Below, one piece after another: positions 2,077 to 58,735 of a stretch of 64,000 nucleotides of DNA. The notes beneath the pieces were generated by a model, which did no database searches, was not told where the DNA came from, and saw nothing but the letters and a program-made list of their open reading frames with translations. The stretch comes from Cellulosimicrobium sp. Marseille-Q4280 (GTDB lineage: Bacteria > Actinomycetota > Actinomycetes > Actinomycetales > Cellulomonadaceae), in assembly GCF_943181405.1 (NCBI RefSeq), contig NZ_CALPBY010000002.1, positions 620,001-684,000 of the forward strand, given 5' to 3'. The translations under genes and the position numbers were made by a program. Positions within the stretch are counted from its first letter, which is position 1. Each line of letters begins with the position of its first letter.

Positions 2077-2135
2077 CTCGTCTCCTCCCCGCGCGTCGTC
2101 GCGCGTGCTCACCGGGGTCACCGGGGTGGCTGCGC

Positions 2136-2498: not shown

Positions 2499-2542
2499 GG
2501 GTGGTGCTCCTTCGTGCGGTGGTGCGGACGTCTCGCCGGTCC

Positions 2543-3574
2543 TCAGAGGTCGACGGCGGACATGAGGGTCCCGAGCTCGGTGCGCCCGAGCACGCGCGTC
2601 GTGCCGGGGCGCAGGTTGCCGAGCGCGATCGGGCCGATGCGGGTGCGCACGAGGCGCGTCACCGGGTGGCCGACCTCCTCGAACATGCGCCGCACGACGC
2701 GGTTGCGGCCCGAGTGCAGCACGATCTCGACCATCGTCTGGTCGGCGACCTGGTCGACCACGCGGTAGGAGTCGGCGCGCACGACGCCGTCCTCGAGCTC
2801 GATCCCGTGGAGGAACTTGTTCGCGACGTTGCCCGGGAGCTTGCCCTGCACCGTCACCAGGTAGGTCTTCGCGATCTCGTGGGACGGGTGCGCGAGGCGG
2901 TTGGCCAGCTCGCCGTCGTTCGTCAGCAGGATCAGTCCCTCGCTGTCCGCGTCGAGCCGGCCGACGTGGAACAGCCGCTCCGAGCGGTCCGCGACGAGGT
3001 CGGTGAGCGACGTGCGCCCGTCCGGGTCGTGCATCGTCGACACGACGCCCTGCGGCTTGTTCAGCGCGAGCGTGACGCGCGTCGTGTCGAGCTGCAGGCG
3101 CATGCCGTCCACGTGCACGACGGCGGTCGCCGGGTCGATGCGCACGCCCAGCTCGCGCACCTGGACCCCGTCGACCTCGACACGACCGTCCGAGATGAGC
3201 TCCTCGCACGCGCGGCGCGACCCGAGACCGGCCGACGCGAGGACCTTCTGCAGCCGCACGCCGTCCTCGACGTGCACGTCGCGGACCGGCTCCGTGGGCT
3301 CCGTGCGCGGACGACGGCGCTGCTGCTGCGCCGCGGCAGGCCGTGCGCCGGGACCGACCCGCGCGCCCCGGCCGGCACCGCCCGGTGCACCGCCCCGACC
3401 CGACGACCCGCGACCGGAACCACCACCGGAAGCGCGAGCGGCGCCGCCCGCGCCCCGGCCGGTGCCGCCCGCGCCCCGGCCGGTGCCTCCGGCGCCCCGG
3501 CCGGCCTCGCGGCCCTGCCCGTCCTCGCGTCGACGTGACCCGTCGCCGTCCCGGCGTCGGTCTCCTGTGCTCAT
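2543..3574 (-). CDS. rluB: 23S rRNA pseudouridine synthase RluB/RsuA family with Gly/Arg-rich N-terminal tail
   Basis: Isomerises a uridine of rRNA to pseudouridine. An S4 RNA-binding domain (about 106-160: RLQKVLASAGLGSRRACEE) is followed by the RsuA/RluB catalytic domain with GRLD at 205-208, Asp208 being the expected catalytic residue, and the GRNRVVRRMFEEVGHPVTRL block. Residues 1-95 are an Arg/Gly/Pro-rich tail containing three copies of a seven-residue TGRGAGG-type repeat; such tails are usual in actinobacterial homologues and probably aid RNA binding. Its start overlaps the scpB stop (ATGA), the common scpA-scpB-rluB arrangement. 343 residues in all. Confidence 0.93.
   Translation of the reverse strand: MSTGDRRRDGDGSRRREDGQGREAGRGAGGTGRGAGGTGRGAGGAARASGGGSGRGSSGRGGAPGGAGRGARVGPGARPAAAQQQRRRPRTEPTEPVRDVHVEDGVRLQKVLASAGLGSRRACEELISDGRVEVDGVQVRELGVRIDPATAVVHVDGMRLQLDTTRVTLALNKPQGVVSTMHDPDGRTSLTDLVADRSERLFHVGRLDADSEGLILLTNDGELANRLAHPSHEIAKTYLVTVQGKLPGNVANKFLHGIELEDGVVRADSYRVVDQVADQTMVEIVLHSGRNRVVRRMFEEVGHPVTRLVRTRIGPIALGNLRPGTTRVLGRTELGTLMSAVDL
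3443..3505. repeat. Three tandem 21-bp repeats inside rluB
   Basis: Two identical 21-bp units (3443-3463 and 3464-3484) and a third with three changes (3485-3505) encode the Gly/Arg heptads of the RluB tail. The units are in frame, so copy-number change would lengthen or shorten the tail without a frameshift. Confidence 0.85.
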
Positions 3575-4317
3575 CGCTGTCCTTCGTCCGTGCCCTCGTC
3601 GTGCGCCGCGTCGGTCGACGCGGCGTCGTCGGGCGTCTGTGCCGCCGAGGGCCGTCGCGGACCGGCCGACCTCAGGTCGGCGAGCCCGTCGATCCCCTCG
3701 AGATCGTCCATCCCCGGCAGGTGCGGCGCGAGCGGGGGCAGCTCGTCGAGCGACGAGAAGCCCATGCGCTCAAGGAAGTACCCCGTGGTGCCGAACAGGC
3801 CTGCGCCCGTGTGCGGGTCCTGCCCGACCTCGGCCACGAGCCCGCGCGCGGCGAGCGTGCGCACCACGCCGTCGACGTTCACGCCCCGGACCGCGGACAC
3901 CTGCCCCCGGCTGACCGGTTGACGGTACGCGATGACGGCCAGAGTCTCCAACGCCGCCTGGGTCAGCCGGGCCGTCTGACCGCCCCGGACGAACCGGCCG
4001 ACGGCGTCGGCGTGCGCCGGTGCGGAGTACACGCGCCAGCCGCCGCCCGCCTCGCGCAGCTCGAAGCCGCGCGGCCGGGAGCCGTCGTCGCCGCGGTACT
4101 CGGCCGCGAGGGTGACGAGCGTCTCGGCGACCTCGTCCGTCGGCACGGCCAGCGCCGCCGCGAGCTCGACCACGGGGATCGGCTCGTCCGCGACCATGAG
4201 CACCGCCTCGAGCGCGGCGGGGAGCCCGCCCGGCAGCTCGTGGACGTCGGGCAGGTCGGCGACGTCGTCCACCGTCACCGCCTCGTCGACGGCTCGGCCG
4301 TCCTCGACCTCGGTCAC
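3571..4317 (-). CDS. scpB: SMC-Scp complex subunit ScpB
   Basis: Winged-helix (kite) subunit of the condensin-like SMC-ScpA-ScpB complex, needed for chromosome compaction and segregation. 248 residues. Typical signatures are ALEAVLMVADEPIPVVELA near the N-terminus, LETLAVIAYRQPVSRGQVSA and GRDPHTGAG-like GQDPHTGAGLFGTTGYFLE. The GTG at 4317 overlaps the scpA stop (GTGA). The frame continues upstream but only ScpB homology from MTEVEDG onward makes sense. The C-terminal 40 residues are acidic and low in complexity. Confidence 0.93.
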   Translation of the reverse strand: MTEVEDGRAVDEAVTVDDVADLPDVHELPGGLPAALEAVLMVADEPIPVVELAAALAVPTDEVAETLVTLAAEYRGDDGSRPRGFELREAGGGWRVYSAPAHADAVGRFVRGGQTARLTQAALETLAVIAYRQPVSRGQVSAVRGVNVDGVVRTLAARGLVAEVGQDPHTGAGLFGTTGYFLERMGFSSLDELPPLAPHLPGMDDLEGIDGLADLRSAGPRRPSAAQTPDDAASTDAAHDEGTDEGQR

Positions 4318-5249
4318 GCGTGCACCTCCGCTACGTCGCGCTCCAGGACGACCTCCTGGTCGCGTCCCTCGTTCTGCTCGTCGCCCTCGTCGAACTCGCT
4401 CCCGACGCCGGCCGCGAGGCCCGTGCCGTCCTCCCCTGCCCACCGGACGGTGAGCTCGCCGAGCGGGGAGAGCTGGTCGAACCCGACCAGCCCTTCCCGG
4501 AAGAGCTCGAGCAGCGCGAGGAAGCGCGCGACGACCACGACCGTCTCCCCCGCGTCCGCCACGAGGGCGCGGAACGTCGTGGCGCCCTGCCGTCGCACGT
4601 GGGCCGCGACGACCTCCGCCTGCTCGCGCACGCTCACCGCGGGGGCGTGCAGGTGGGCGAGGTCCACCCCGGGCGGGGGCGCCTTCGGCGCGAGCGCTCC
4701 CGCGGCGAGCGCCGCGAGGCGGTCGGGACCCATCGTCCACACGAGCTCGGGCAGCAGCGCGGCGAGGTGCGGCTCGAGCTGCACGACGCGCGGGAACCGC
4801 CGGCCCTGGCTCTCGAGCCGTTCGGCGAGCACGCCCGAGACCTCCTTGTACGCCCGGTACTGCAGGAGCCGGACGAACAGCACGTCGCGTGCCTCGAGGA
4901 GGGCGAGGTCGTCCTCGTCGTCGACGATGCCCGACGGGAGGAGGCGGGCCGCCTTGAGGTCGAGGAGCGTCGCCGCGACGACGAGGAACTCGCTCGCCGT
5001 CCCGAGGTCCCAGCCGGGATGCTCCTGGCCCGCCGCGTGCGCCTCGGCCGCCGCGCGCTCCTGCTCCCGGATGTGGGCGATGAAGTCGTCGGTCACGCGC
5101 CCGAGCGCGATCTCCGTGATGTCGAGCTTGTGCTTCGTGATGAGCGACAGCAGCAGGTCGAACGGGCCGTTGAAGTTGTCCAGCCGGACCTCGAAGCCGC
5201 GCTGCTCGGTGCGCGCGGACGGGGCGTCGGTGTCAGGCGGCGTCGCCAC
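4314..5249 (-). CDS. scpA: SMC-Scp complex kleisin subunit ScpA
   Basis: Kleisin that bridges the SMC heads. 311 residues from the chosen GTG. Core signature is FEVRLDNFNGPFDLLLSLI near residue 19, followed by HKLDITEIALGRVTDDFIAHI, with the C-terminal winged-helix part (ELFREGLVGFDQLSPLGEL). The GTG at 5249 overlaps the ParA gene by 17 bp. An alternative start at 5291 would add 14 residues without family similarity and was not preferred. The gene is coupled to scpB by GTGA. Confidence 0.92.
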   Translation of the reverse strand: MATPPDTDAPSARTEQRGFEVRLDNFNGPFDLLLSLITKHKLDITEIALGRVTDDFIAHIREQERAAAEAHAAGQEHPGWDLGTASEFLVVAATLLDLKAARLLPSGIVDDEDDLALLEARDVLFVRLLQYRAYKEVSGVLAERLESQGRRFPRVVQLEPHLAALLPELVWTMGPDRLAALAAGALAPKAPPPGVDLAHLHAPAVSVREQAEVVAAHVRRQGATTFRALVADAGETVVVVARFLALLELFREGLVGFDQLSPLGELTVRWAGEDGTGLAAGVGSEFDEGDEQNEGRDQEVVLERDVAEVHA

Positions 5250-6231
5250 GGGCGACCAGCTCCCGCGCGAGCTGTCGGTAGGCCTGCGCACCCGGGTGGT
5301 TCGGCGCGTACACCGTGATGGGCTCGGCGGCGACCGACGCGTCGGGGAACTTCACCGTGCGCCCGATGACCGTCTGGAGCAGCTTGTCCCCGAACGCCTC
5401 GTGCACGCGCGCCACGACCTCGCGGGAGTGCAGCGTCCGCGAGTCGAACATCGTGGCGAGGATGCCGTCGACGTCGAGGCGCGGGTTGAGCCGGTCGCGC
5501 ACCTTCTCGATCGTCTCGACGAGCAGCGCCACGCCGCGCAGCGCGAAGAACTCGCACTCGAGCGGGATGAGCACGCCGTGCGCGGCCGTGAGCGCGTTGA
5601 CGGTCAGCAGGCCGAGCGACGGCTGGCAGTCGACGAGGATCACGTCGTACTCGTCGACGACGGGGCGCAGCACGCGGGCCAGCACGGACTCGCGCGCGAC
5701 CTCGCCGACGAGCTGCACCTCCGCCGCGGACAGGTCGATGTTCGCGGGCAGGACGTCCAGGTTCTCGACGTCCGTGCTCACGATCACCTCGTGCACGTCG
5801 GCGCCGCGCTCCATCAGCAGGTTGTAGACCGTGCGGTCGAGCTCGTGCGGGTTCACCCCGAGGCCGACCGACGCCGCGCCCTGGGGGTCGAAGTCGACGA
5901 GCAGCACGCGGCGCCCGCACTCGGCGAGCGCGGCACCGAGGTTGATCGTGGTGGTCGTCTTGCCGACGCCGCCCTTCTGGTTGCACATCGCGATGATCCG
6001 ACCGGGGCCGTGCGACGCGAGCGGGGCGGGGTCGGGGAACACCGGGAGCGGGCGGCCGACGACGTCGAGGAGACCCAGCGCGTCGACGTGCGCCGCGGGC
6101 TCCGACGACGCACCCGCCTGGCGGTCCGACGGGGAGTCCGGCGGGGCGGCGGGGCGGGCGCCGGCACCGGGCGCGGGGGACGTGCCGCCGGGCTCGTGCT
6201 GGGGCTCGGCCCGGCTGCTCACGTCCGCCAC
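5233..6231 (-). CDS. ParA family (SMC-associated) ATPase
   Basis: Deviant-Walker ATPase of the ParA/Soj family. CNQKGGVGKTTTTINLG holds the signature Walker A (residues 86-92), followed by LLVDFDPQGAAS and the Walker B-like VILVDCQPSLGLLTVNAL. The N-terminal ~75 residues are Pro/Ala/Gly-rich, common in the actinobacterial copy that lies directly before scpAB. The gene has no parB beside it and is surrounded by xerD and scpAB, so it is the second, scp-linked ParA rather than the origin-proximal parA of the parAB pair; a role in nucleoid organisation with SMC is inferred. 332 residues, GTG start. Confidence 0.9.
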   Translation of the reverse strand: MADVSSRAEPQHEPGGTSPAPGAGARPAAPPDSPSDRQAGASSEPAAHVDALGLLDVVGRPLPVFPDPAPLASHGPGRIIAMCNQKGGVGKTTTTINLGAALAECGRRVLLVDFDPQGAASVGLGVNPHELDRTVYNLLMERGADVHEVIVSTDVENLDVLPANIDLSAAEVQLVGEVARESVLARVLRPVVDEYDVILVDCQPSLGLLTVNALTAAHGVLIPLECEFFALRGVALLVETIEKVRDRLNPRLDVDGILATMFDSRTLHSREVVARVHEAFGDKLLQTVIGRTVKFPDASVAAEPITVYAPNHPGAQAYRQLARELVARGDAA

Positions 6232-6297
6232 GGGATCGCAGCCCCCCCCACCCGCCCGTGTGCACGCGCCCGCGCGCCGCGAGTCCGGTCGGTCCGG

Positions 6298-7296
6298 TCA
6301 GCCGAGCGCGCGGGGGTGCGAGGCCGTGTAGACCTCGCGCAGCGTGTCTGGCGTCACGAGGGTGTAGATCTGCGTCGTCGTCACGGACGCGTGCCCGAGC
6401 AGCTCCTGGACCACGCGCACGTCCGCGCCGCCCGCGAGAAGGTGCGTGGCGAACGAGTGGCGCAGCGTGTGCGGGGAGATCCGCTCGGGGTGCGCCAGCC
6501 CGGCGCGCTCCGCGGCCGTGCGCAGCACGGCCCACGCGCTCTGGCGCGACAGCCGCGCACCGCGCGTGTTGAGGAACGTCGCCGGGGTGCCTCGCCCGCG
6601 CGCGGCGAGGTCCGGGCGGCCACGCACCAGATAGGCGTCGAGAGCGCGCCGCGCGAACGACCCCACCGGCACCACGCGCTCCTTGCCACCCTTGCCGAGC
6701 AGCCGCACGGCCCCGGTGTCGAGGTCGAGGTCGTCGACGTCGAGGCTCACGGCCTCCGAGATGCGCGCCCCCGTCGAGTACACGAGCTCGAGCAGCGCCC
6801 GGTCGCGCAGCGGAGCGGCACCGTCACCCGCCCCTGCGGCGTCGAGGATGCGCTCGACCTCGTCGGTCGAGATCGCCTTCGGCAGCCGCCTGCCCTGCGC
6901 GGGCGGACGGACGTCCACCGACGGGTCGCCGTCCGCGAGGCCCTCCGCCGCGCAGAAGCGGTGCCAGCCCCGCACGGCGGCCACGGACCGGGCCGTGGAC
7001 GACGGCGAGAGGCACGCCCCGCCGTCGGACCCCGTGCGCAGCGCCGTGACGTAGTGGGCGACGTCCTCCGCGACGACGTCGCGCACGGCGTGGTTGCCGC
7101 GCCCGGCGAGGAACGCGACGTAGCGCGTCAGGTCGCGGCGGTACGCCGCGACCGTGTTCGCCGACAGGCCGCGTTCCACGGCGAGGTGCGCCAGGTACTC
7201 GCGCGTCGCGCGGTCGAGCGCGTCGGGCACGACGACGGGCGCTGCGGACCCGGCGGGCGCCGGCTCGCCGGCTCGGGCGGAGAGGGCAGGTGGCAC
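6298..7296 (-). CDS. xerD: Site-specific tyrosine recombinase XerD
   Basis: Resolves chromosome dimers at dif together with XerC. All tyrosine-recombinase catalytic residues can be placed: Arg178 (GARISE), Lys202, His276 and Arg279 ([12 protein letters not shown]), His302 ([12 protein letters not shown]) and the nucleophile Tyr311. The N-terminal SAM-like core-binding domain covers about 25-120. 332 residues, slightly long because of a 24-residue N-terminal extension. It is the first gene of the block running through the ParA gene and scpAB, as in many actinobacteria, so it is a housekeeping recombinase and not a mobile-element integrase. Confidence 0.94.
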
Positions 7297-7387
7297 GGGA
7301 CCATCATGCCCGCGCGGACGGACGCCGCGGCGGAGGCGGTCCCGAGGACGACCGTGCCAGCAGGTGCCGGCGCGTCGTCGGCAGGTG

Positions 7388-8386
7388 TCAGAAGGGCAGG
7401 AAGACGTCGACCGCGACGGCGACGAACAGCAGCGTCAGGTAGGTGATCGACGCGTGGAAGACCTTCATCGCGCCGATCTTGCCGCGCGACGGGTCCTGCG
7501 CACGGCGCAGCATCGTCACGCACGACGCCATGAACCACACGCCGAGGACGGTCGCGACGACCCCGTACACCCACGTCATGCCCGCGAGCGGCCACAGGGC
7601 GAGCGACGACGCGACCATTGCGAGCCCGTACACGATCATCTCGCGCGCGACCTTGCGGTCGTCCGCGACGACGGGGAGCATCGGGACGCCCGCGGTCTCG
7701 TAGTCGCGCCTGAACTTGATCGACAGCGGCCAGTAGTGCGGCGGCGTCCAGAAGAAGATGACCAGGAAGAGCGCGACGGCGGCCCAGCTCAACGAGTCCG
7801 CGACGGCGGACCACCCGATGAAGACGGGCATGCAGCCGGCGATCCCGCCCCAGACGATGTTCTGCGGGGTGCGGCGCTTGAGGATCATCGTGTAGCCGAC
7901 GACGTAGATCGCGATGGCGGCGAACGTCAGCCAGGCCGAGAGCGCGTTGACGAGCACGGCGAACCACACGAGCGCCACGACGCCGAGCACCGTCGCGAAG
8001 ACGAGCGCCGCGCGCGGCGTGACCTCTCCCGTGACCAGCGGGCGCCGCTTGGTGCGGTTCATCATCTCGTCGATGTCGCGGTCGAGGTAGCAGTTGTAGA
8101 CGTTCGCGGACGCGGCGGCGAGGGTGCCGCCCACCAGCGTCGCGACGACGAGCCAGAAGTCCGGGAAGCCGCCCGCCGCGAGGATCATGGTCGGGACGGT
8201 CGTGACGAGCAGGAGCTCGATGATGCGCGGCTTCGTCAGCGCGACGTACGCGCCGACGCGCTCTTTCACCCCGCGAGCAGCGACGGCCGCGGAGGGACGC
8301 GCCGTCTCGTCCGCCGACCCGGGGGTCGGCACGGTGCGCGACGGGACTCCGGTCCCGTCGATCGGTGCCTGGCTCGTGGTGTGCAC
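7388..8386 (-). CDS. ctaB: Protoheme IX farnesyltransferase (heme O synthase)
   Basis: Integral-membrane UbiA-family prenyltransferase that attaches farnesyl to heme b, giving heme O for the aa3 cytochrome oxidase. The Asp-rich motif is [20 protein letters not shown]; the second loop carries [17 protein letters not shown]. About eight or nine transmembrane helices are evident. The hydrophobic core begins after a ~45-residue polar leader. The GTG at 8386 is preferred (GGAAC-type ribosome site upstream); an ATG at 8453 would add 22 residues and remains possible. The gene diverges from tkt, the usual actinobacterial arrangement. Confidence 0.9.
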
Positions 8387-47708: not shown

Positions 47709-48386
47709 TCAGGCGCCGCCGACCTGCTCGATGACGGCGTCCGCGACCTCGCGCATCGTGAGACGCCGGTCCATCGACGTCTTCTGGATCCAGCGGAACG
47801 ACTCGGGCTCCGACAGACCCATCTTCGTCATGAGCAGGCCCTTGGCACGGTCGACGCGCTTGCGCGTCTCGAACCGCTCCGCGAGGTCGGCGACCTCGGA
47901 CTCGAGCGCCGAGATCTGCGAGTAGCGCGAGATCGCGATCTCCACGGCCGGGAGCAGGTCCGCCGGGGTGAAGGGCTTGACGACGTACGCCATGGCCCCC
48001 GCGTCCCGGGCGCGCTCGACGAGCTCGGCCTGCGAGAACGCCGTCAGCAGCACGACCGGCGCCGCGTGGGCCTTGCCGATCTGCTCCGCCGCGGAGATGC
48101 CGTCGAGCTCGGGCATCTTCACGTCCATGACGACGACGTCCGGCTTGAGCTCGAGCGCGAGCTTCACGGCGGTCGCGCCGTCACCGGCCTCGCCGACGAC
48201 GTCGAAGCCGGCCTCGCGCAGCGTCTCCACGACGTCGAGGCGGATGAGCGCCTCGTCCTCGGCGACGACTGCGCGCCGTGCGGGACGACCCGTCGACGGC
48301 GGCGTCGTCTCGACGGGCTGGGGCTCGAGCATGGGGGGCAGGTCGAGCGGCTGCTTGTCCGCGGGCTGCGCTGTCTGGTCACTCAC
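47709..48386 (-). CDS. Response regulator with ANTAR RNA-binding domain (PdtaR-like)
   Basis: 225 residues: a ~35-residue Pro-rich leader, a receiver domain with acidic pair Glu43-Asp44, phospho-acceptor Asp88 (VVVMDVKMPELDG), Thr115 and Lys137, a coiled-coil linker, and an ANTAR domain (RVDRAKGLLMTKMGLSEPESF) for antitermination at hexaloop RNA hairpins. The place near polA and rpsA matches M. tuberculosis PdtaR. The cognate histidine kinase is not in the window. The GTG at 48386 is chosen because TACGAT (48394-48399) is seven bases upstream; the ATG at 48395 overlaps that -10. Confidence 0.92.
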   Translation of the reverse strand: MSDQTAQPADKQPLDLPPMLEPQPVETTPPSTGRPARRAVVAEDEALIRLDVVETLREAGFDVVGEAGDGATAVKLALELKPDVVVMDVKMPELDGISAAEQIGKAHAAPVVLLTAFSQAELVERARDAGAMAYVVKPFTPADLLPAVEIAISRYSQISALESEVADLAERFETRKRVDRAKGLLMTKMGLSEPESFRWIQKTSMDRRLTMREVADAVIEQVGGA

Positions 48387-48393
48387 GCTGCTC

Positions 48394-48399
48394 ATCGTA
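48394..48399 (-). promoter_or_regulatory. -10 of the ANTAR regulator gene
   Basis: TACGAT, seven bases before GTG 48386; it overlaps the alternative ATG, arguing against that start. Confidence 0.5.
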
Positions 48400-48515: not shown

Positions 48516-48589
48516 GCCCCGGTAGCCCAACCGGCAGAGGCGTTCGGCTCAAACCCGATCCAGTGTGGGTTCGAATCCCACCCGGGGCA
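48516..48589 (+). tRNA. tRNA-Leu(CAA), atypical short variable arm
   Basis: 74-nt cloverleaf. Acceptor GCCCCGG/CCGGGGC, D arm GCC/GGC, anticodon stem TTCGG/CCGAT (top pair T-T mismatch) with loop CTCAAAC giving anticodon CAA (48550-48552), variable region only 5 nt (CCAGT), T arm GTGGG-TTCGAAT-CCCAC, discriminator A. A CAA anticodon assigns it to leucine (UUG codons), but bacterial leucine tRNAs normally have a long variable arm. CCA is not encoded. Confidence 0.85.
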
Positions 48590-48615
48590 CCTCAGCACCG
48601 CTCCCCGCGGCGCCG

Positions 48616-49977
48616 TCACGACGTCCGTGCGGCGGGCAGCTCCGGCAGGTGCGCGTCGAGCAGCCAGGCGTCGAGGAGCCGGTCCACGTCTGCCCCGCCC
48701 TCGCGCAGCGTCCCCCGGAGGTCAGCGGTCGTCACCGAGCCGTGCCGGTAGGTCGACGTCCAGCGCTGCAGGAACGCGAAGAAGTCGCCGTCGCCGAGCG
48801 TCAGACGCAGGGCGTGCAGCGTCAGGGCCCCGCGCTTGTACAGACGGTCGTCGAACATGAGGTCCGGCCCGGGGTCGGCCAGCACGAGGTCCTGCGGCAA
48901 CGACGCGAGCCGCGCGCGAGCACCCCGCGCGTGCGCGTCGGCGCTCTCGCGGCCCGCCTTCTCCGACCACAGCCACTCGGCGTAGCACGCGAAGCCCTCG
49001 TTCAGCCAGATGTCCTGCCAGCGGGCGACGGACACGCTGTTGCCGAACCACTGGTGGGCGAGCTCGTGCGCGACGAGCCGGTCCCAGGTCCCGTCCCCGT
49101 CGAGGTGGTTGGCGCCGAAGATCGACAGTCCCTGCGCCTCGAGCGGGATCTCGAGGTCGTCCTCCGTGACGACGAGCCGGTAGCCCTCGGCGAACGGGTA
49201 CGGCCCGAACATCGCCTCGAACGCGCTCATCGTCTCGGCGTGCCGCGCCAGGTCGTGGCGCACGGCGTCCCGCTGCGACGCGTGCGCGAGGGCGGTCTGG
49301 GCGACGGGGGGCCGGACGGCGTCCAGGAGGCCGGAGAGGCCGGACCTGCGGCCGACGTCGAGGTCGTCGAACCGGCCGACGACCACGGTCGCGAGGTACG
49401 TGCACATGGGTGCGGTCGGGCCGAAGCGCCACGTCCGCGTCGACGCCCTGCGGGACACGCCGAGCAGCGGACCGTTGGCCGCCACCGCGTACCCCGCGTC
49501 GGTCGTCACCGTGATCTCGAACGTCGCCTTGTGCGCGGGTGTGTCGTTGCACGGGAACCAGGTGGGCGCGCCGTCGGGCTGGCCCGCGACCAGCGAGCCC
49601 TCCGTGAGCTCCTCCCAGCCGACGTCGCCCCACGGCCCGATCCACGGCCGGGGCCGCCCGCCGTAGACGACCTCGACGCGCAGCGCGGTGCCCCGCACGG
49701 CGACGCGCCCCAGCCGGACCGTCAGTCTCCCGCCGGCGTGCCCGAACCGCGCCGGGGCGCCGTCGACGGTCACGCGCGTCGCCTTGAGGTGGACGAGGTC
49801 GAGCTCGACGACGTCCACGTCTGCGTCCAGGACGACGTCCAGGATCGCGACGCCGTCGAGACGGTTGGGACGCACGCGGTACGCCAGCTCGAGCCCGTAG
49901 CGGTTCACGTGGTGGTCGGACGTGCCGCGGTGCGGGGCGTAGGGGTCGGGGCCGTTCAGCGATCGACGGTGAGCCAC
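48616..49977 (-). CDS. M1 family zinc aminopeptidase (short form), partner of the Pls-like synthetase
   Basis: 453 residues: the N-terminal beta-saddle domain and the thermolysin-like catalytic domain, but no long C-terminal helical domain. Zinc site HELAHQW at 304-310 with third ligand Glu327 (LNEGFA), and a Tyr in LYKRGALTLHAL as candidate transition-state residue. The usual GAMEN exopeptidase motif is replaced by LEAQGLSIFG (about 279-288). No signal peptide, so it looks cytosolic. It starts 55 bp after the synthetase stop on the same strand. Zinc aminopeptidases of this kind are known to degrade epsilon-poly-lysine in Streptomyces; that role here is inferred. Confidence 0.88.
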   Translation of the reverse strand: MAHRRSLNGPDPYAPHRGTSDHHVNRYGLELAYRVRPNRLDGVAILDVVLDADVDVVELDLVHLKATRVTVDGAPARFGHAGGRLTVRLGRVAVRGTALRVEVVYGGRPRPWIGPWGDVGWEELTEGSLVAGQPDGAPTWFPCNDTPAHKATFEITVTTDAGYAVAANGPLLGVSRRASTRTWRFGPTAPMCTYLATVVVGRFDDLDVGRRSGLSGLLDAVRPPVAQTALAHASQRDAVRHDLARHAETMSAFEAMFGPYPFAEGYRLVVTEDDLEIPLEAQGLSIFGANHLDGDGTWDRLVAHELAHQWFGNSVSVARWQDIWLNEGFACYAEWLWSEKAGRESADAHARGARARLASLPQDLVLADPGPDLMFDDRLYKRGALTLHALRLTLGDGDFFAFLQRWTSTYRHGSVTTADLRGTLREGGADVDRLLDAWLLDAHLPELPAARTS

Positions 49978-50032
49978 GGTCGGGCGTCCTCCAGGGTCGG
50001 GTCCGCCGCATCGTACGTGAGGACGGGCCCGC

Positions 50033-53000
50033 TCACCGCGCGCCCACCGGCCCGCTCCTCGGTCGAACGGGCGCGGGCAGCTCGCTCGTCCACGGGACGA
50101 TCGGGTTGCCGTGCCAGAGCGACCCCGGCGGCACGAGCTCGCCGCGCATCACGAGGGAGGCGGGACCGACGCGGGCGCCGTCCGCGACGACGGCGGCGGG
50201 CAGGATCACCCCGTGCGGGCCGATCGAGGCGCCCGGCGCCACGCGCACCGTGTCGAGGCTCATCACGCGGTCGTGGAACAGGTGGGTCTGCAGGACGCAC
50301 CCCCGGCCGACGGTCGCGCCGTCGTCCAGGTGCACCAGGTCGGCCTCGGGGAGCCAGTACGTCTCGCACCACACGCCGCGGCCGACGCGCGCGCCGAGCG
50401 TGCGCAGCCAGGCGGTGAGCAGCGGGGTGCCGTACACGTGCACGGCGAACCACGGCGCGGCGACCACCTCGACGAACGTGTCCTGGAGCTCGTTGCGCCA
50501 GACGAACGTGCTCCACAGGGGATGGTCACCCGCGCGGAACCGGCCCACCAGCACCCACTTGGCCGCCGTCGTCAGGAGCGCTCCCGTCGCCCCCGCGGCG
50601 AGCAGGACCACCCCGGACACGAGCGCGGCCGTGCCCAGACCCCGGGTGTCGACGACGGTCAGGAGCACGACGACCACCGCGACGGCCAGGTACGCCGAGC
50701 ACACGACGGCCGCCCAGCGCAGCACCTCGAACGCGCCCCGCGCGACGAGCAGCCGGGCCGGCGGCGAGAACGTCCGGGACTCGTCGGTCTCGCCCTGCGC
50801 GACGCGACGCAGCCGGGTCGGCGGGCTGCCGAGCCACGACGACCCGGCCTTCGCCTTCGCCGGTGCGGCGGAGAGCACGGCGACGAGGCCGTTCTTCGGC
50901 ACGGAGCGACCCGGCGCGGTGATCCCCGAGTTGCCGAGGAACGCGCGCTTGCCGACGCGCGCCCGGGCGACCCGGACCCAGCCGCCGCCGAGCTCGTAGG
51001 GAGCCACCATCGTGTCGTCGGCGAGGAACGCGCCCCGCGCGACCTCCATCATCGACGGGAGGCCGACCACGGTCGAGGCCTCGACGTCGCGCCCCACGCG
51101 CGCGCCGAGCAGGCGCAGCCACCCGGGCGTGAAGACGCTCGAGTACAGCGGGAACAGCGCGGTGCGCGCCGAGTCCATGAGCCGCTGCGTGACCCACGCC
51201 TGCCAGCCCTGCCGGCTGTGCGCGGCGTGGTAGCCCTCGCCGAGGCCGACGGCGAGGAGCCGGACGCTGGCGAGCACGAGCGCGGCGTACGTCGCCGCTG
51301 CCGCGAGCGCCGCGGCGGGGACCCACGCCGCGAGCGGTCCGAGCAGCGCCCCGACGTCCCGCGGGACGCCGGTCAGCGGCACGCCCGCGAGCAGCACGAG
51401 GAGCCCCGACGCGACGGCGAGCACCGGGAGCAGGCTCAGTGCGAGCCCGCTCAGCCCGTACGCGACCTCCCACCGGCGTCGCCGCGGGGGCCGCTCGTCG
51501 GGCCAGGGGTGCTTCACCTCGGTGCGGACCCGCACGGCGGGCGACCCCGCCCAGTACTCGCTCGCGCCCACGCGTCCCGCGACGCACGACCCCGCGGCCA
51601 CGTCCGCGCCCTTGCCGACCCGTGCACCGGGGAGGAGGGTCGAGCGGGCGCCGATCGTCGCGCCGGCTCCGACCCGCACCCTGCCGAGGTGGAGCGTGTC
51701 GCCGTCGAGCCAGTGCCCGGACAGGTCGACCTCGGGCTCGACCGCGCTCCCCTTGCCCAGGACGAGCATCCCGGTCACGGGGGGCAGCGCGTGCAGCTCG
51801 GCGTCGCGACCCACCTTCGCGCCGAGCAGGCGCGCGTACAGGCCGACGAGCGGCGCACCGGCCACCGTCACGCCACCGCTCGCACCGACCAGGCCCTCCG
51901 CCGCCCAGAGCCGCAGGTGGACGTTCCCGCCACGGGGATAGCTCCCCGGCCGCACGCCGCGCAGGAGCAGGCGCGCGCCGACGGCCGCGACGAGCAGGCG
52001 GCCCGGCGGGCTCACCAGCAGGAGCCAGCCGGCGACCACCCACCACCACGAGACCGGGCGGACGAACGGGAGCGACGTCGTGGCGGCGAGCACGTTGCCG
52101 AGGGCAGCCACCCAGACCAACCAGCGCAGCCCGGCGATCGTGCGCAGCGCGAGCACGACGAGCAGCTGCACCGCCTGCGTCCGCCACCCCACCGGGGCGG
52201 CCGGGCTCGTCGGCCGGGCCGTGGGCCCGCCACCCGGTGCGGTGCCGTCCGTGGCCGTGGCACGGGCCCCGGCGCCGCGCTCGACGAACGCGGCGAGCTC
52301 CCCCACCGACGGGTTGTCGTAGAGGTCGGCCACCGTGGTGCTCGGCAGGCGTTCGCGCAGCGCCGAGACCACTTGGGCCGCCGTGAGGCTCCCGCCGCCC
52401 AGCTCGAAGAAGTCGTCGTCCGCGACCTGCGGCGCGGCGCCGAGCACCGTCCGCCAGATGCCCGCGACCCATTCCTCGCCGGGGGTGAGCGGCTGGGCGT
52501 CGTCCGGCACGCGGGACTCCGCGGCGAGCCGCGCGCCCTCCGGCAGCGGCCACGGGAGCGCGTCGCGGTCGACCTTGCCCGACGTCCGGGTGGGGATCTC
52601 GTCGACGACCGCGAGGAGGGGGACGAGCGCGGCGGGGAGCGTGTGGCGCAGCGCCTCGACGCACGCCCGCGCGTCGAGCTCCTCTCCTCGACCCGGGTCC
52701 GGCACCAGGTACCCGACGAGCACCTGGTTCCCCGCCTCCGAGCGGCGGACGGCGCTCGCGGCGGCGCTCACGCCGTCGAGCCCGAGCAGCGCGGAGTCGA
52801 TCTCGCCGAGCTCGATCCGCCGGCCGCCGACCTTCACCTGGTCGTCGGCGCGCCCGACGAAGAGCAGCCCTGCGTCGTCGCGCACGACGAGGTCGCCCGA
52901 CCGGTAGGCGCGGTCCCACCCGAGGCCGGGGTGCGGGGCGTACTTCTCGGCGTCCTTGGCCGGGTCGAGGTAGCGCGCGAGCCCGACGCCGCCGATCACC

Positions 53001-54028
53001 AGCTCGCCCGTCGCACCGGGCGCGACCGGCGCGCCGTCGGGGCCGACGACCGCGAGGTCCCAGCCGTCGAGCGGCAGCCCGATGCGCACGGGACCGGGGC
53101 CCCCGAGCAGCGCGGCGCACGCCACGACGGTGGCCTCGGTCGGCCCGTAGGTGTTCCACACCTCGCGGCCCGGCACAGCGAGCCGGTCGACGAGATCGGG
53201 CGGGCACGCCTCGCCGCCGAAGATCAGCAGGCGCACGGAGCTCAGCGTCTCCGGCGGCAGGAGGCCCGCGAGCGTCGGGACGGTCGAGACGACGGTGATC
53301 CCCTGCTCCGCGACCCACGGACCGAGGTCGGCGCCCGTCCGCACGAGCGACCGGGGGGCGGGGACGAGGCACGCGCCGTGACGCCACGCGAGCCACATCT
53401 CCTCGCACGAGGCGTCGAACGCGACGGACAGCCCGGCCAGGACCCTGTCCCTCGGCCCGAGCGGGGCGTCCTGCAGGAAGAGCCGCGCCTCGGCGTCGAC
53501 GAACGCCGCCGCGCTGCGGTGCGTCACGGCCACGCCCTTGGGCGTGCCCGTCGACCCCGACGTGAAGATGATCCAGGCGTCGTCCTCCGGACCGGGACGC
53601 TCCCCCGTGCGCGGGCTGGGTCCGACGTCCGGCGGAACGGCGAGATGCCCGTCGTCACCCACGACCGCACGGACCCGCGCCTCGGTGAAGACGAGCTCCG
53701 CCCGCTCCTCCGGGTCGTCCTTGTCGACGGGGACGTAGGCCGCTCCGGCGGTGAGGATCGCGAGGATCGAGAGGTACAGGTCGGCGCGTCCGGACGTCGC
53801 CCGGACGCCGACCCGGTCCCCCGGCCCGACCCCCTGCTCGACGAGCCGGGCCGCCCGCGCACCGACCTCGGTGAGGAGCTGCGCGTAGGTCAGCGGCCGG
53901 CCGTCGTCGATCGCCGGGGCCTCCGGGTGGGCGGCCGCCGTCGAGGCGAGGACGTCGAGGAGCGTCCTCGGAGCGGGCGCGCGGTCGGCCGCGAGGAGAG
54001 GGTCGGGCGAGGTGGTGACGGGCTGCAC
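50033..54028 (-). CDS. Single-module NRPS-like membrane synthetase, epsilon-poly-L-lysine synthetase (Pls) family
   Basis: 1331 residues, close to the ~1320 of Streptomyces Pls. Order: adenylation domain (~25-500; IIFTSGSTGTPKG at 153-165, NTYGPTE at 292-298, TSGK at 482-485), thiolation domain with Ser547 in LGGGSLTAA, then six hydrophobic segments (two each near 618-690, 855-930 and 1100-1165) separating three tandem left-handed-helix/condensation-like domains (~700-850, 960-1095, 1170-1320). There is no canonical condensation or thioesterase domain. The A-domain pocket is D205 A206 E209 S248 I269 G271 T293 V301 V302 K485, pointing to lysine. GTG at 54028 with GGAG 4 bases upstream; the long open frame beyond it is non-coding. 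Confidence 0.85.
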   Translation of the reverse strand: MQPVTTSPDPLLAADRAPAPRTLLDVLASTAAAHPEAPAIDDGRPLTYAQLLTEVGARAARLVEQGVGPGDRVGVRATSGRADLYLSILAILTAGAAYVPVDKDDPEERAELVFTEARVRAVVGDDGHLAVPPDVGPSPRTGERPGPEDDAWIIFTSGSTGTPKGVAVTHRSAAAFVDAEARLFLQDAPLGPRDRVLAGLSVAFDASCEEMWLAWRHGACLVPAPRSLVRTGADLGPWVAEQGITVVSTVPTLAGLLPPETLSSVRLLIFGGEACPPDLVDRLAVPGREVWNTYGPTEATVVACAALLGGPGPVRIGLPLDGWDLAVVGPDGAPVAPGATGELVIGGVGLARYLDPAKDAEKYAPHPGLGWDRAYRSGDLVVRDDAGLLFVGRADDQVKVGGRRIELGEIDSALLGLDGVSAAASAVRRSEAGNQVLVGYLVPDPGRGEELDARACVEALRHTLPAALVPLLAVVDEIPTRTSGKVDRDALPWPLPEGARLAAESRVPDDAQPLTPGEEWVAGIWRTVLGAAPQVADDDFFELGGGSLTAAQVVSALRERLPSTTVADLYDNPSVGELAAFVERGAGARATATDGTAPGGGPTARPTSPAAPVGWRTQAVQLLVVLALRTIAGLRWLVWVAALGNVLAATTSLPFVRPVSWWWVVAGWLLLVSPPGRLLVAAVGARLLLRGVRPGSYPRGGNVHLRLWAAEGLVGASGGVTVAGAPLVGLYARLLGAKVGRDAELHALPPVTGMLVLGKGSAVEPEVDLSGHWLDGDTLHLGRVRVGAGATIGARSTLLPGARVGKGADVAAGSCVAGRVGASEYWAGSPAVRVRTEVKHPWPDERPPRRRRWEVAYGLSGLALSLLPVLAVASGLLVLLAGVPLTGVPRDVGALLGPLAAWVPAAALAAAATYAALVLASVRLLAVGLGEGYHAAHSRQGWQAWVTQRLMDSARTALFPLYSSVFTPGWLRLLGARVGRDVEASTVVGLPSMMEVARGAFLADDTMVAPYELGGGWVRVARARVGKRAFLGNSGITAPGRSVPKNGLVAVLSAAPAKAKAGSSWLGSPPTRLRRVAQGETDESRTFSPPARLLVARGAFEVLRWAAVVCSAYLAVAVVVVLLTVVDTRGLGTAALVSGVVLLAAGATGALLTTAAKWVLVGRFRAGDHPLWSTFVWRNELQDTFVEVVAAPWFAVHVYGTPLLTAWLRTLGARVGRGVWCETYWLPEADLVHLDDGATVGRGCVLQTHLFHDRVMSLDTVRVAPGASIGPHGVILPAAVVADGARVGPASLVMRGELVPPGSLWHGNPIVPWTSELPAPVRPRSGPVGAR

Positions 54029-54286
54029 ACTGCTCCAGGGCTGGTGGATGGTCCTGGGCGAAGGGTAGACGGGCCAGGTGCACGGCGGGCGAACGGACGG
54101 TGTCGGTGGACGGTGCCCCGGCGGTGCTCGGAGCTGTGCGCGGCGGCTGCGACGGCGCGTCGGCGGCCGCCGGGCCCGCGTCACCTGACGGAAACTCCCC
54201 GGACACACCGCGGTCGTACCGTCGCAGCACGACGCACGCACGGGACGCGGCGCCGCACGTGGCCGGTGACCGCGGAGGGGGGGTCC
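54029..54286. promoter_or_regulatory. Divergent region between the synthetase and GH92 genes
   Basis: 258 bp with no supported gene. Minus strand: -10 TACCCT (54069-54064), about 36 bases before the synthetase start. Plus strand: TACCGT (54217-54222), about 65 bases before GH92. No clear -35 or operator seen. Confidence 0.4.
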
Positions 54287-56542
54287 ATGACCGACAGCCT
54301 GCTCGACCTCGTCGACCCCTTCGTCGGCACGGAGGCCACCGCCCTGCCTCCTGCGACGGGTCTCGCGGCGACCTGGTGGGCGCCGAAGCCTCAGGTCGGG
54401 AACACCCACCCGGGCGCGTGCCATCCGCTCGGCATGGTGTCCGCGTGCGCGTACTCGGGCGCGTACCCCACCGGCTACGGGCGCTACGACATCAGCACGG
54501 AGGGGCTGCCGACGTCGCTCGCCGACGACCAGCTCGCGTCGGGCGTCACGCACTTCCAGCAGTCCGGCACCGGGGCGATCCGCAAGTACTACAACTACCT
54601 CCGGGTGACGCCGATGCTCGAGCCCCTCGACGCGCTGGGGCGCACGTGGGCGCTGCACGACGAGGTCGCCTCGCCCGGCTACTACGCGGCGACGCTCGCG
54701 AGCGGCGTGCGCTGCGAGGTGACGGTGGGGCCCAAGAGCGCCGTGCACCGCTTCACGTTCCCCGAGCACCCTGACGCCCGGATCGTCGTCGACCTCTCGC
54801 TCGGTGGCCTGGCCATCCCGTACGGCGCGACCGTCCCGCTGCGCGCCCACCTCGGGACCCTCGGACCGGGGTCCGCCTACGGCGAGATCGTCGTCGAGGG
54901 CGCACCGCTGGCCGCTCACCTCGAGTGCGACGCCCCGCGCTGGCGCCAGATGCTCTGGTACGACCGGCGCCTCATGCCGGGCAGCACGCGCCTGGAGTTC
55001 GGCGACATCCGGCCGACGACCCTGCGCCCGTTCGGTCTCATGTGGGCGGGACCGACGAGCGCGGGCCAGGTCGTCGAGCTGCGCGTCGGGTTCTCCCTGC
55101 GCGGCCCCGAGCGGGCCCGCGACAACCTCGTCACGGACTGCGGACCGGGACCGGCGTCGTTCGCGGAGCGACGCACGGTCACGACGGCCACATGGCGCGA
55201 GCACCTCGGTCGCGTCGAGGTCGACGGCGCGGACGACGAGCGCCGATCGGTCTTCGCGACGGCGCTCTACCACTCGCTCCTCAAACCCTGCCTCGCCCCC
55301 GACGAGAGCCCGTTCTGGCCGACCGACGGGCCGTTCGCGTACGACGTCTCGACGATGTGGGACATCTACCGCACGCAGCTCCCCCTGCTCACGACGTTCT
55401 TCCCGGAGCGCGCCGTCGAGCTCGCGACGGCGCTGCTGCACATCTGCGAGGAGGAGGGCAACTTCCCCATCGGCTACCGGATGGCGCGCGGCGCGGACCG
55501 GTTCTCGCGGCAGGCCAGCGCTCTCGTCCAGACGTTCCTCGCCGACCTGTGCGCGCTCGAGGTCCCGGGGATGGACTGGGACTGGGCCCTGGTCCACATG
55601 CACAACGACCTGCGCCGCACGTACGGGGAGGACTACCTCCTGCACGGCGTCGCGCACCCGATCAGCCACACGCTCGACCTCGCGTTCGGGTACTGGTGCA
55701 CCGAGCGGGTCGCGCGTCGCGTCGGCGACGTCGCGCTCGCCGACGAGCTCGCCCGGCTCGCCACCGGGTGGGCCAACGCGTTCGACCCGTCCACCGGGCT
55801 GCTGCACGACTCGACCTTCTACGAGGGCGGGCGCTGGAACTACTCGTTCCGCCTCGTGCACGACATGGCGGCACGGATCGCGCTCGCGGGAGGTGACGAC
55901 GCGTTCGTCGCGCTGCTCGACCGGTTCTTCGGGTACGGCGCAGAGCCGGTCGTCCAGCCGGGCGAGCGGCCCGGCGTCGCGGAGATGGCCGCGGGGTACG
56001 CGCTCGACCGGTTCGAGGGGCTGAACAACGAGCCCGACATGGAGGCCCCGTGGGCCTACCACTACGCGGGCCGGCCCGACCGCACGGCCGAGGTCGTGCA
56101 CGCGGCCGTGCACCAGCGGTTCGGCCCCGGTCCCGGTGGGCTGCCCGGCAACGACGACTCCGGCGGGCTGAGCTCCTGGTACGTGTGGGCGTCGCTCGGG
56201 CTGTTCCCCGTCGCCGGGCAGGCGCTCTTCCTCGTCAGCGCCCCGGCCTTCTCCGAGTCCCGTCTGAAGGTCCCCGGCGGGGTCCTCACGATCGAGACCA
56301 CCGGGTTCGCGCCGCCGGGCCGGTCGACGCCGCCGCAGTACGTCCGCGCCGCCTGGCTCGACGGGCGCCCGCTCACCCGGACCTGGGTCCCCGCGAGCAT
56401 CGTCCGTGGCGGCGGGCGACTCCTCCTCGAGCTCGGGTCGGAGCCGGCCGCGTGGGGCACCGCCCTCGCCGACAGGCCTCCGTCCTTCCCACCACCCCGG
56501 TACCTCACCACACCCACCCCACCCTCCCGGGAGACGCCATGA
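54287..56542 (+). CDS. GH92 family alpha-mannosidase, no signal peptide
   Basis: 751 residues over both GH92 domains. N-terminal LLDLVDPFVGTEA and GNTHPGACHPLGMV, the core NNEPDMEAPWAYHYAGRPD near residue 581 and GLPGNDDSGGLSSWYVWASL near 621 are the calcium and catalytic blocks of exo-alpha-1,2-mannosidases. The protein starts directly with the catalytic fold, so it should be cytosolic, unlike most GH92 enzymes, which are exported. The ATG has GGAGGGGG 5 bases upstream. Its stop overlaps the ATG of the next gene (ATGA), linking it to a glycosyltransferase. Confidence 0.92.
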   Translation: MTDSLLDLVDPFVGTEATALPPATGLAATWWAPKPQVGNTHPGACHPLGMVSACAYSGAYPTGYGRYDISTEGLPTSLADDQLASGVTHFQQSGTGAIRKYYNYLRVTPMLEPLDALGRTWALHDEVASPGYYAATLASGVRCEVTVGPKSAVHRFTFPEHPDARIVVDLSLGGLAIPYGATVPLRAHLGTLGPGSAYGEIVVEGAPLAAHLECDAPRWRQMLWYDRRLMPGSTRLEFGDIRPTTLRPFGLMWAGPTSAGQVVELRVGFSLRGPERARDNLVTDCGPGPASFAERRTVTTATWREHLGRVEVDGADDERRSVFATALYHSLLKPCLAPDESPFWPTDGPFAYDVSTMWDIYRTQLPLLTTFFPERAVELATALLHICEEEGNFPIGYRMARGADRFSRQASALVQTFLADLCALEVPGMDWDWALVHMHNDLRRTYGEDYLLHGVAHPISHTLDLAFGYWCTERVARRVGDVALADELARLATGWANAFDPSTGLLHDSTFYEGGRWNYSFRLVHDMAARIALAGGDDAFVALLDRFFGYGAEPVVQPGERPGVAEMAAGYALDRFEGLNNEPDMEAPWAYHYAGRPDRTAEVVHAAVHQRFGPGPGGLPGNDDSGGLSSWYVWASLGLFPVAGQALFLVSAPAFSESRLKVPGGVLTIETTGFAPPGRSTPPQYVRAAWLDGRPLTRTWVPASIVRGGGRLLLELGSEPAAWGTALADRPPSFPPPRYLTTPTPPSRETP

Positions 56543-57864
56543 ACCGCACCGACGCCACCCGCGACCGCCGACTCGTGATCGTCGTCCGCGCCGACCCCGT
56601 GATCTGCGGCCACTCCGGAGAGGCGCGCAACCTCGCGGAGGCCGCGCTCCACCGAGGGTTCACCGACGTCCGGATCGTCACGTGGCCGGTCGACCGGCTG
56701 CGCGAGGCCGGGCTGCCGCTCAAGCCGCTCGACACCGTCCTGCCCTACAGCCCGGGCATCACCGTCGAGCGGCCGGAGCCCGTCGGCGACTACAAGGTCC
56801 CCGACGGCCGGTACCTCGCCGGGCTCACGGGTCGGCTCGTCGAGCTCTTCACCGACGGCGTCCCGACGGTCTGCCTCTCGCTCTACCTCAGCCCGCACAC
56901 GACCGCGGTCTCCGACGCGGTGCGGGTCGCGCGCAGCACCGGTCTGCCGGTCGACGTCGCGACCGTCGCCGAGGCCGTCGGCTCGGACGTGACGAACGTC
57001 GTGCGCTCGTGCGTCGAGGCCGGGCGGTTCGGCGCCGCCGCGCACGTGCTCGCCGACTACCTGTCCAGCGACCTGTGCGTCGCGGTGTCCCGCTACACGC
57101 GCGACCTCATCGTCGAGTGCGCCCAGGAGATCGACGACCGGCACGGCACCTTCTTCGCCCCGCAGTGCCGCGAGCGCGTGCGGGTCTCGTACCCAGCGAT
57201 CGACACGAGCGCGTACACGGACCTCGACCCCGAGGAGACCGCCGCCGTCCTCGCGCGACGAGGGCTCCACGCGGACGGCTACGTGCTGTTCCTCTCGCGG
57301 CTCGCCGCCGCGAAGGGCGTCGACGACCTGATCGAGGGGTTCGCGCGCTCCGGTGCGGCCACGACGCACCGGCTCGTCGTCGCGGGCCGCGGCCCGCAGG
57401 AGGCGGAGCTGCGCGCGCAGGCCGCCGCGAGCGCGGTCGCCGACCGCATCACGTTCCTGGACGACGTCGACGACGCGGAGAAGCCGCACCTCATGGCGGC
57501 GAGCGCCGCGTTCGTGCTCCCGAGCAAGCCGCGACCCGAGTTCGTCGAGACGTTCGGCATCGCCCTCACCGAGTCGATGCTCGCGGGCGGCGGGCCTGTC
57601 GTGACGACCGACACCGGAGGCATCGGCGAGGCCGTCGGTGACCACGCGACGATCGTCCCGGTCGCCGACCCGGCGGCGATCGCCCGCGCCCTCGACGAGA
57701 TCCTGGCGGCCGACCCGGCGGCGCGTGCGCGCGCGCGAGAGGCCGCGCGCGCCCACGCCCTGCAGTTCGACCGTGCCACCGTGCTCGACGGCATGCTGCG
57801 AGCGCTCGCGCTCAGCCCCGACGCTCCGGCATGGCTCACACCGTGGGAGCCGGCCGCCGTGTGA
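56539..57864 (+). CDS. GT4 family glycosyltransferase
   Basis: 441 residues, GT-B fold. N-domain ADPVICGHSGEARNLAEAAL, C-domain LFLSRLAAAKGVDDLIEGF and VAGRGPQEAEL, and the EX7E donor site ETFGIALTE near residue 335 followed by GGPVVTTDTGGIGEAVG. Donor and acceptor cannot be told. No membrane segment. Coupled to GH92 by ATGA, suggesting synthesis and turnover of one cytosolic or membrane-surface glycoconjugate. Its last 29 bases overlap the end of the converging nucleotidyltransferase gene. Confidence 0.9.
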   Translation: MNRTDATRDRRLVIVVRADPVICGHSGEARNLAEAALHRGFTDVRIVTWPVDRLREAGLPLKPLDTVLPYSPGITVERPEPVGDYKVPDGRYLAGLTGRLVELFTDGVPTVCLSLYLSPHTTAVSDAVRVARSTGLPVDVATVAEAVGSDVTNVVRSCVEAGRFGAAAHVLADYLSSDLCVAVSRYTRDLIVECAQEIDDRHGTFFAPQCRERVRVSYPAIDTSAYTDLDPEETAAVLARRGLHADGYVLFLSRLAAAKGVDDLIEGFARSGAATTHRLVVAGRGPQEAELRAQAAASAVADRITFLDDVDDAEKPHLMAASAAFVLPSKPRPEFVETFGIALTESMLAGGGPVVTTDTGGIGEAVGDHATIVPVADPAAIARALDEILAADPAARARAREAARAHALQFDRATVLDGMLRALALSPDAPAWLTPWEPAAV

Positions 57865-58735
57865 CGTCCGGGGCGTACCGGTCCACGAGACCGCGGAACG
57901 CCTCGGCGGCCGTCTCGCGCGCCGCCGCACGCTTCCCCGCGACACCGTCGGCCGCCACGCCGTTCCTCGCCGTCCCGACGGCCGTCCGCGCACGGTCCAG
58001 CTCGTCCTCGACGAACCTCGCGAGAACGCCCGGGACCGTGCCCGTGCCGGCCTCGCGCGTGACCGCCTTGCGCGCCACGAGGTCCGCCGCCGCGCGCACG
58101 ACGACGCCCGGCGCGGCGGACTCCTCGAGAAGCCGCAGCAGGTCGATCGGCGGCGCCACCGCGCCGTCGTGCACGCGCAGCCAGCGCAGGGCCGCGGCGG
58201 GACGCAGGACGTAGAAGAACGTCTTGAGGCGCGGCCCGGCGGCGCCGGCACCGGCGACCAGAGCGCCGTCGTCGCCCGCCCCGTGCCGTCGCCCCTGGGC
58301 GAGCGCGACGTGCAGATAGTGCCGACGCATGTCGTCACGGTTCACGACCTGCTCCGCGAGCCGCAGCATCTCGGCCCGGAACCCGTCGTCCCCGCGATAG
58401 ACGATCCGCGACCGCAACCACTCCGTCACGGTCGCGTTCCCGCGCACCATCAGGCGCACGGCCTTGAGCAGGTCCCAGCCGTTGACGTCGAGCACGGCGT
58501 CGAGCGGCGTCTCGACGACGTCGCGCGCCGGCCAGGGGTCGAGGTAGTCCGCGCGCGACCGCACGTACAGGAAGCGGCAGTCGTAGTCGGAGTCCGGCGA
58601 CGGGAAACCCCAGGCCTGGCTCCCGCTCTCCACGGCGAGCGGGATCGCGACCCGCTCGTCCCGCACCACGGCGTCGAGCCGCGCGTCGACCCGACGCACG
58701 ACCTCGGGGTCCAGGGAGTCGGGCACGGCGCGCAT
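57836..58735 (-). CDS. YcgL/COG3541-type nucleotidyltransferase
   Basis: 299 residues with the polymerase-beta-like signature GSQAWGFPSPDSDYDCRF (GSx9DSDYD) at about 38-55, VMVRGNATVTEWL-type helix and YYLHVA-like HYLHVALAQ. Predicted cytosolic nucleotidyltransferase of unknown target. Only 6 bases separate TACCAT from the ATG, a leaderless-type start. The 3' end overlaps the glycosyltransferase by 29 nt in antisense. Confidence 0.85.
   Translation of the reverse strand: MRAVPDSLDPEVVRRVDARLDAVVRDERVAIPLAVESGSQAWGFPSPDSDYDCRFLYVRSRADYLDPWPARDVVETPLDAVLDVNGWDLLKAVRLMVRGNATVTEWLRSRIVYRGDDGFRAEMLRLAEQVVNRDDMRRHYLHVALAQGRRHGAGDDGALVAGAGAAGPRLKTFFYVLRPAAALRWLRVHDGAVAPPIDLLRLLEESAAPGVVVRAAADLVARKAVTREAGTGTVPGVLARFVEDELDRARTAVGTARNGVAADGVAGKRAAARETAAEAFRGLVDRYAPDVTRRPAPTV

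Follow-up and report, generated by a model that had tools for sequence, protein, structure and literature searches.

In a 64,000-nucleotide stretch of the genome of Cellulosimicrobium sp. Marseille-Q4280 (contig NZ_CALPBY010000002.1, positions 620,001 to 684,000; hereafter the window), two neighboring genes on the reverse strand very probably form a unit for making and degrading the cationic polymer epsilon-poly-L-lysine. The upstream gene (pls, 50033-54028) encodes a nonribosomal peptide synthetase (NRPS) of the Pls/PosA family that would synthesize the polymer, and the downstream gene (48616-49977) encodes a PldII-type M1 zinc peptidase that would hydrolyze it in the cell. Both genes begin with GTG, both frames read as genes by codon-position G+C, and the 55-bp gap between them (49978-50032) suggests co-transcription of pls and the M1 gene as one operon. 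The combination of architecture and linkage described below is far beyond chance.

Architecture of the Synthetase

The original prediction, made from the nucleotide sequence, had assigned to this 1331-residue protein the domain order of Pls, namely an adenylation (A) domain, a thiolation (T) domain, six membrane helices and three soluble domains with no thioesterase (TE), and Pfam, TIGR02353 and transmembrane (TM) prediction agree with it. The Pfam matches comprise AMP-binding (residues 29-352), AMP-binding_C (409-485), PP-binding (519-582) and a hexapeptide repeat (784-818); neither a condensation (C) nor a TE domain occurs among the Pfam matches of the synthetase (E 0.001). The A domain covers residues 13-497 (52538-53992, reverse strand like the whole gene). 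The T domain (residues 519-582, 52283-52474; PF00550, 53.9 bits) carries in its LGGGS motif Ser547, the predicted phosphopantetheine site. The NRPS terminal domain, supported by TIGR02353, an AlphaFold2 (AF2) model and a residue survey, occupies residues 620-1310 (50099-52171) and scores 713 bits against a curated cut-off of 423.1, so that the TIGR02353 search proposed for the C-terminal region was passed by a wide margin. In the host genome this is the only TIGR02353 match over the cut-off, four others lying far under it.

Three pairs of TM helices (at about residues 615-688, 851-926 and 1105-1161, from predicted helices and hydropathy) stand between three soluble domains of hexapeptide type, C1 to C3; a stretch inside the A domain (residues 83-102) that barely exceeds the hydropathy threshold was left out of the TM count. 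The AF2 model of the terminal domain (pLDDT 84, pTM 0.88) predicts a bundle of three left-handed beta-helices, and His1249 in C3 is the sole histidine common to all 27 terminal domains compared. The protein thus has the order A-T-TM-C1-C2-C3 without C or TE domain, by which membership of the Pls/PosA family is recognized; its closest relative, from Cellulosimicrobium sp. PMB13, shares 93% identity, and NCBI labels the Cellulosimicrobium homologs "Pls/PosA family."

Substrate Code

Among solved A domains the epsilon-poly-lysine synthetase 7wew is the closest (654 bits), followed by an NRPS at 393 bits. A generic NRPS was considered and dropped because Pls is nearest by this wide margin, and the placement with capsule or siderophore NRPSs that had been named as a ground for refutation did not appear. 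The ten-residue code of the A domain reads DAESIGTVVK (residues 205, 206, 209, 248, 269, 271, 293, 301, 302 and 485), its positions having been located through the GrsA motifs. The letters of the 7wew code, obtained from a pairwise alignment, are identical, as a comparison with Pls structures had been expected to reveal; the protein therefore has the lysine-type code of Pls proper. The same code occurs in all 80 nearest genome loci, which are the best 80 of at least 595 and represent the near end of the sample (a tally of 81 in the code survey includes the window's own copy, L001).

The spacing of the code residues agrees with the numbering of PosA, the delta-poly-ornithine synthetase of Acinetobacter baumannii, in the excerpt of PMC10522769. 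According to this excerpt, position 2 of the code tracks the chain length of the substrate, with Phe for diaminopropionate or diaminobutyrate (DAP/DAB), Met for ornithine and Ala for lysine, and 7WEW is named epsilon-poly-L-lysine synthetase.

The M1 Peptidase

The peptidase gene was correctly placed 55 bp downstream of pls by the original prediction, and its 453-residue product is an M1 enzyme as had been claimed: it matches PF01433 (98.2 bits, cut-off 27.7) and PF17900, and the zinc site HEXXH-(18)-E is intact (H304, E305, H308 and E327). Its position directly downstream of pls is that of PldII. The suggestion that it belongs to the class of polymer-degrading enzymes is favored by its place within an M1 clade linked to Pls. 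A tree was built from 53 M1 proteins (30 from the lysine-code group, 19 unlinked M1s and 4 located beside Phe-code synthetases), in which the 30 lysine-code-group proteins lie on one side of a branch with 100/100 support; one of them (L152, from G155) is not adjacent to its synthetase. The window protein groups (100/100) with those of Streptomyces sp. SPB162 (L060) and Actinacidiphila glaucinigra (L038); PldII of Streptomyces albulus itself is not among the sequences of the tree.

One loop reads IPLEAQG in the window protein vs. mostly ALETQ in unlinked M1s. Residue P278 is constant in 116 lysine-group rows and replaced by A or S in the 19 unlinked M1s, while C143 is constant in the same rows and mostly S, V or G in the unlinked proteins; the rows comprise the 80 loci and 36 from other genomes, including L152 and a few repeated strains. 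Since P278 shares its loop with E280, which corresponds to the M1 exopeptidase motif, the residue pattern indicates that the Pls-linked clade has an altered site for the amino end of the substrate.

Neither a signal peptide nor a TM segment is apparent in the window protein by hydropathy, and by the same measure no N-terminal hydrophobic stretch over the threshold was found in it or in any of its 80 relatives (3 of these 80 PldII-type proteins have such a stretch elsewhere). This lack of a visible export signal points to a cytoplasmic peptidase, and the hydropathy of the window protein speaks against a location outside the membrane, the one reported for the endo-type PldII of S. albulus in the excerpt of PMC9223678.

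Linkage of Synthetase and Peptidase across Genomes

An M1 relative lies downstream of the synthetase on the same strand in every one of the 80 loci. In 75 of them no more than about 160 bp separates the synthetase match from the start of the M1 match, which lies 0.6-2.2 kb further on in the remaining five (L045, L047, L051, L057 and L065). A more even sample was provided by 197 genomes of the host's class, 42 of which contain TIGR02353 (52 matches). M1 matches in this sample fall into 33 at 396.8 bits or more and all others at 287.8 bits or less, and 32 of the 33 high-scoring proteins have a TIGR02353 match on the same strand within 6 kb. Viewed from the synthetase, 32 of 34 lysine-code proteins in the class (33 with codes read, plus the window) have an M1 partner. 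In G155 the peptidase is on a different contig from the lysine-code synthetase, and for the lysine-code synthetase of G038, which has a divergent terminal domain, no peptidase partner was found.

The other 18 TIGR02353 matches in the class include four with a Phe code, twelve with no in-frame A domain and two partial ones (G018); no peptidase occurs within 6 kb of the 14 A-less and partial matches, among the matches listed. TIGR02353 proteins lacking an in-frame A domain (860-1190 residues) were seen at L086, L094, L116-L119, L125, L127-L130 and L154, of which L125 starts at the edge of its contig and may be truncated. At several A-less loci an adjoining open reading frame (ORF) contains an A domain with the code DIWQSTADDK or similar, and such terminal domains might depend on another NRPS acting in trans. 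The G038 protein (L153, 2051-6187, forward strand) has the appearance of a chimera, its lysine-code A domain being fused to a terminal domain similar to the A-less type; no neighboring peptidase was found.

Distribution within Cellulosimicrobium

Synthetase and peptidase are present together in the same 5 of 17 Cellulosimicrobium genomes and are both missing from the other 12, two of which are 83% and 75% complete. Identity to the other copies in the genus is 82-93% for the synthetase and 76-84% for the peptidase. In the window the present/absent site spans 48592-54299, between a tRNA-Leu(CAA) gene (48516-48591, forward strand) and a GH92 glycoside hydrolase gene (54266-56542, forward strand, ATG at 54287), both borders lying outside the pair. 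Five of the genomes that lack the pair (G002, G004, G005, G010 and G013) have a flanking match that extends as far as the end of tRNA-Leu(CAA) or slightly beyond and picks up at GH92 after 96-159 bp, vs. 5.7 kb in the window. G014 has the same short polA-GH92 spacing by coordinates, and in G006, G007, G008, G009 and G011 the match to the window breaks off just past the tRNA.

Where the pair is present, it adjoins tRNA-Leu in the window, G012 and G016. In G001 polA is 17 kb away and tRNA-Leu was not found within the 13.5 kb examined, and in G003 the contig ends next to the peptidase gene. A mobile island, suggested by the neighboring tRNA-Leu, was considered and is not supported, as two changes on the polA tree (root not known) are enough for the distribution of the pair. 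G014, with its short spacing, is sister to the pair-bearing G003 (100/98), and loss of the pair is therefore the simpler reading.

Other genes nearby were recorded. An ANTAR-domain response regulator gene (47709-48395, reverse strand) adjoins the tRNA-Leu gene. A gene of the RlaP family (RNA repair pathway DNA polymerase beta family; 57836-58735, reverse strand; PF10127, 198 bits) lies near a GH92 gene and a glycosyltransferase gene.

Proposed Function and Alternative Explanations

By analogy with characterized Pls and PosA, the A domain would adenylate L-lysine and load it onto the T domain, and the terminal domain would couple the loaded carboxyl group to the amine on a second lysine's side chain, with His1249 of C3 as the proposed catalytic base, as in hexapeptide acyltransferases. 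The A-T portion and C1-C3 would lie on the cytoplasmic side, and the chains would exit across the membrane. The peptidase may then cut chains that have stayed in the cytoplasm or come back into it; this would return lysine and protect the producer. The original prediction had suggested production of, and protection from, a cationic polymer; the lysine code and the Pls-linked clade favor this, while product and protection stay at the level of proposals. With no export signal seen in the peptidase, any protection would be intracellular.

A different cationic homopolymer (delta-poly-ornithine, gamma-poly-diaminobutyrate, beta-poly-diaminopropionate or epsilon-poly-beta-lysine) is a quite improbable product. 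Enzymes of the same kind make all of these and a prediction from the code is indirect; however, DAESIGTVVK is the same as that of the lysine enzyme and unlike DMEHNGTVSK of PosA or DGESISVVNK of the beta-lysine type, and the Phe-type codes differ from it at position 2. Even harder to credit is a house-keeping M1 enzyme that adjoins pls by chance: M1 matches at E 1e-20 or better are common (112 of the 197 class genomes), but the near-exclusive location of the close copies beside pls (32 of 33), their joint presence and absence with it within the genus and their separate clade led to the rejection of a chance neighbor.

What the peptidase does for the cell is less clear-cut, and a chief role in setting chain length or recycling lysine, rather than in self-protection, has somewhat less than an even chance. 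PldII is called the major degrader of the product in the excerpt of PMC9223678, and the lack of a visible export signal fits turnover within the cell. Tight gene pairing, however, fits this role and self-protection alike, and in the same excerpt the late stalling of cultures of pldII-repressed strains is put down to damage by the polymer. It is also conceivable, though rather unlikely, that the pair is silent or non-functional in this strain. Corynebacterium variabile itself yielded no product and its Pls was undetected by proteomics (PMC8117764), and at least two losses or gains took place within Cellulosimicrobium; against this stand the open frames, the intact zinc-site and code residues and the degree of identity to the genus copies given above. 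Synthesis of epsilon-poly-L-lysine by the Pls-family enzyme together with intracellular hydrolysis by its M1 partner is preferred over these alternatives.

An Apparent Second Pairing with Phe-Code Synthetases

In the genus g26 a TIGR02353 protein occurs in 14 of 15 genomes, and in 13 of the 15 an M1 from a different group lies on the same strand, some 0.8 kb downstream from the synthetase match. All 12 Phe-type synthetases of g26 that were read have the code DFEY[IL]GTVTK, while that of L198, cut by a contig end, was left unread. The four Phe-linked M1s in the tree form a group of their own (100/100). A signal-like N-terminus was found in all 13 Phe-linked proteins (14-residue hydropathy of 1.67-2.59, only three above 2.0), vs. 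a maximum of 1.21 among the 80 proteins of PldII type. At L131 the synthetase (1832-6019) and the M1 gene (6809-8242) are on the forward strand, an arrangement shared by L132-L134 and L191-L199. Between the two genes of L131 a frame at 5964-6764 has a BPL_N Pfam match, and a 255-residue ORF listed there as a gene was set aside as an apparent wrong-frame reading. The fourteenth g26 synthetase, in G216, carries the lysine code instead, and the M1 located some 4.6 kb downstream from it is of PldII type (408 bits), so that both kinds of pair occur in one genus.

No report of a Phe-code synthetase paired with an M1 peptidase was found in the open-licence literature, judged by titles and abstract beginnings. 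The pairing suggests that a poly-amino-acid synthetase recruited a peptidase on a second, separate occasion. It is tentatively proposed, with a somewhat smaller chance of being right than wrong, that peptidases matched to their polymers were recruited at least twice, a cytoplasmic M1 clade by lysine-code (Ala) synthetases and a secreted one by Phe-code synthetases, whose substrate is presumably a shorter diamino acid. If true, the peptidase clade would tell which polymer an unread synthetase makes.

Relation to Known Systems

The closest precedent is the Pls-peptidase operon of C. variabile DSM 44702, for which epsilon-poly-lysine was demonstrated by expression in Streptomyces coelicolor (PMC8117764). 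The two systems have in common the domain order, a Pls-type code, a peptidase in the same operon and a non-filamentous actinobacterial host; they differ in genus and in that the product was shown there and is predicted here. In S. albulus pls and pldII form one operon (excerpt of PMC4361855), and there too the synthetase is followed by a degrading aminopeptidase (excerpts of PMC4361855 and PMC9223678). According to these excerpts, however, the S. albulus genes overlap by 4 bp and PldII is outside the membrane, whereas the window genes are 55 bp apart and the M1 protein has no export signal visible by hydropathy.

PosA belongs to the same A-T-terminal domain family, and in the model of its terminal domain three packed beta-helices sit on six TM helices; in the excerpt of PMC10522769 it has Met at code position 2 and a single-gene operon, in contrast to Ala and a peptidase gene here. 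Poly-diaminobutyrate and poly-diaminopropionate synthetases have the same architecture with another code, and their gene context is not that of a pls-peptidase operon (PMC8117764).

Homologs of pls were reported in Brevibacterium, Arthrobacter, Microbacterium, Rhodococcus and others (PMC8117764), and such clusters in Agrococcus and Microbacterium (excerpt of PMC12067966). For Cellulosimicrobium, no report of epsilon-poly-lysine was found in the open-licence literature, as far as titles and abstract beginnings tell; the excerpt of PMC12689991 names the cluster in connection with strain EKR5.2, which is placed among strains with a germicidin cluster (Streptomyces-type). The pair had been put forward as an occurrence outside Streptomyces, which is true and yet not new: the system cannot be called novel because Pls-peptidase operons outside Streptomyces were already published for C. 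variabile (PMC8117764). The Cellulosimicrobium pair is a further member of the system described in Streptomyces and Corynebacterium.

With this pair, Cellulosimicrobium joins the organisms likely to produce an antimicrobial polymer of food grade, and the synthetase and its degrader appear as one conserved unit in many actinobacteria. The natural role of epsilon-poly-lysine has been called less well understood (PMC8117764); the patchy presence of the pair in the genus, where the site is empty in five genomes or more, offers close comparisons for the purpose of the polymer, and the missing export signal makes the membrane side on which degradation takes place directly testable.
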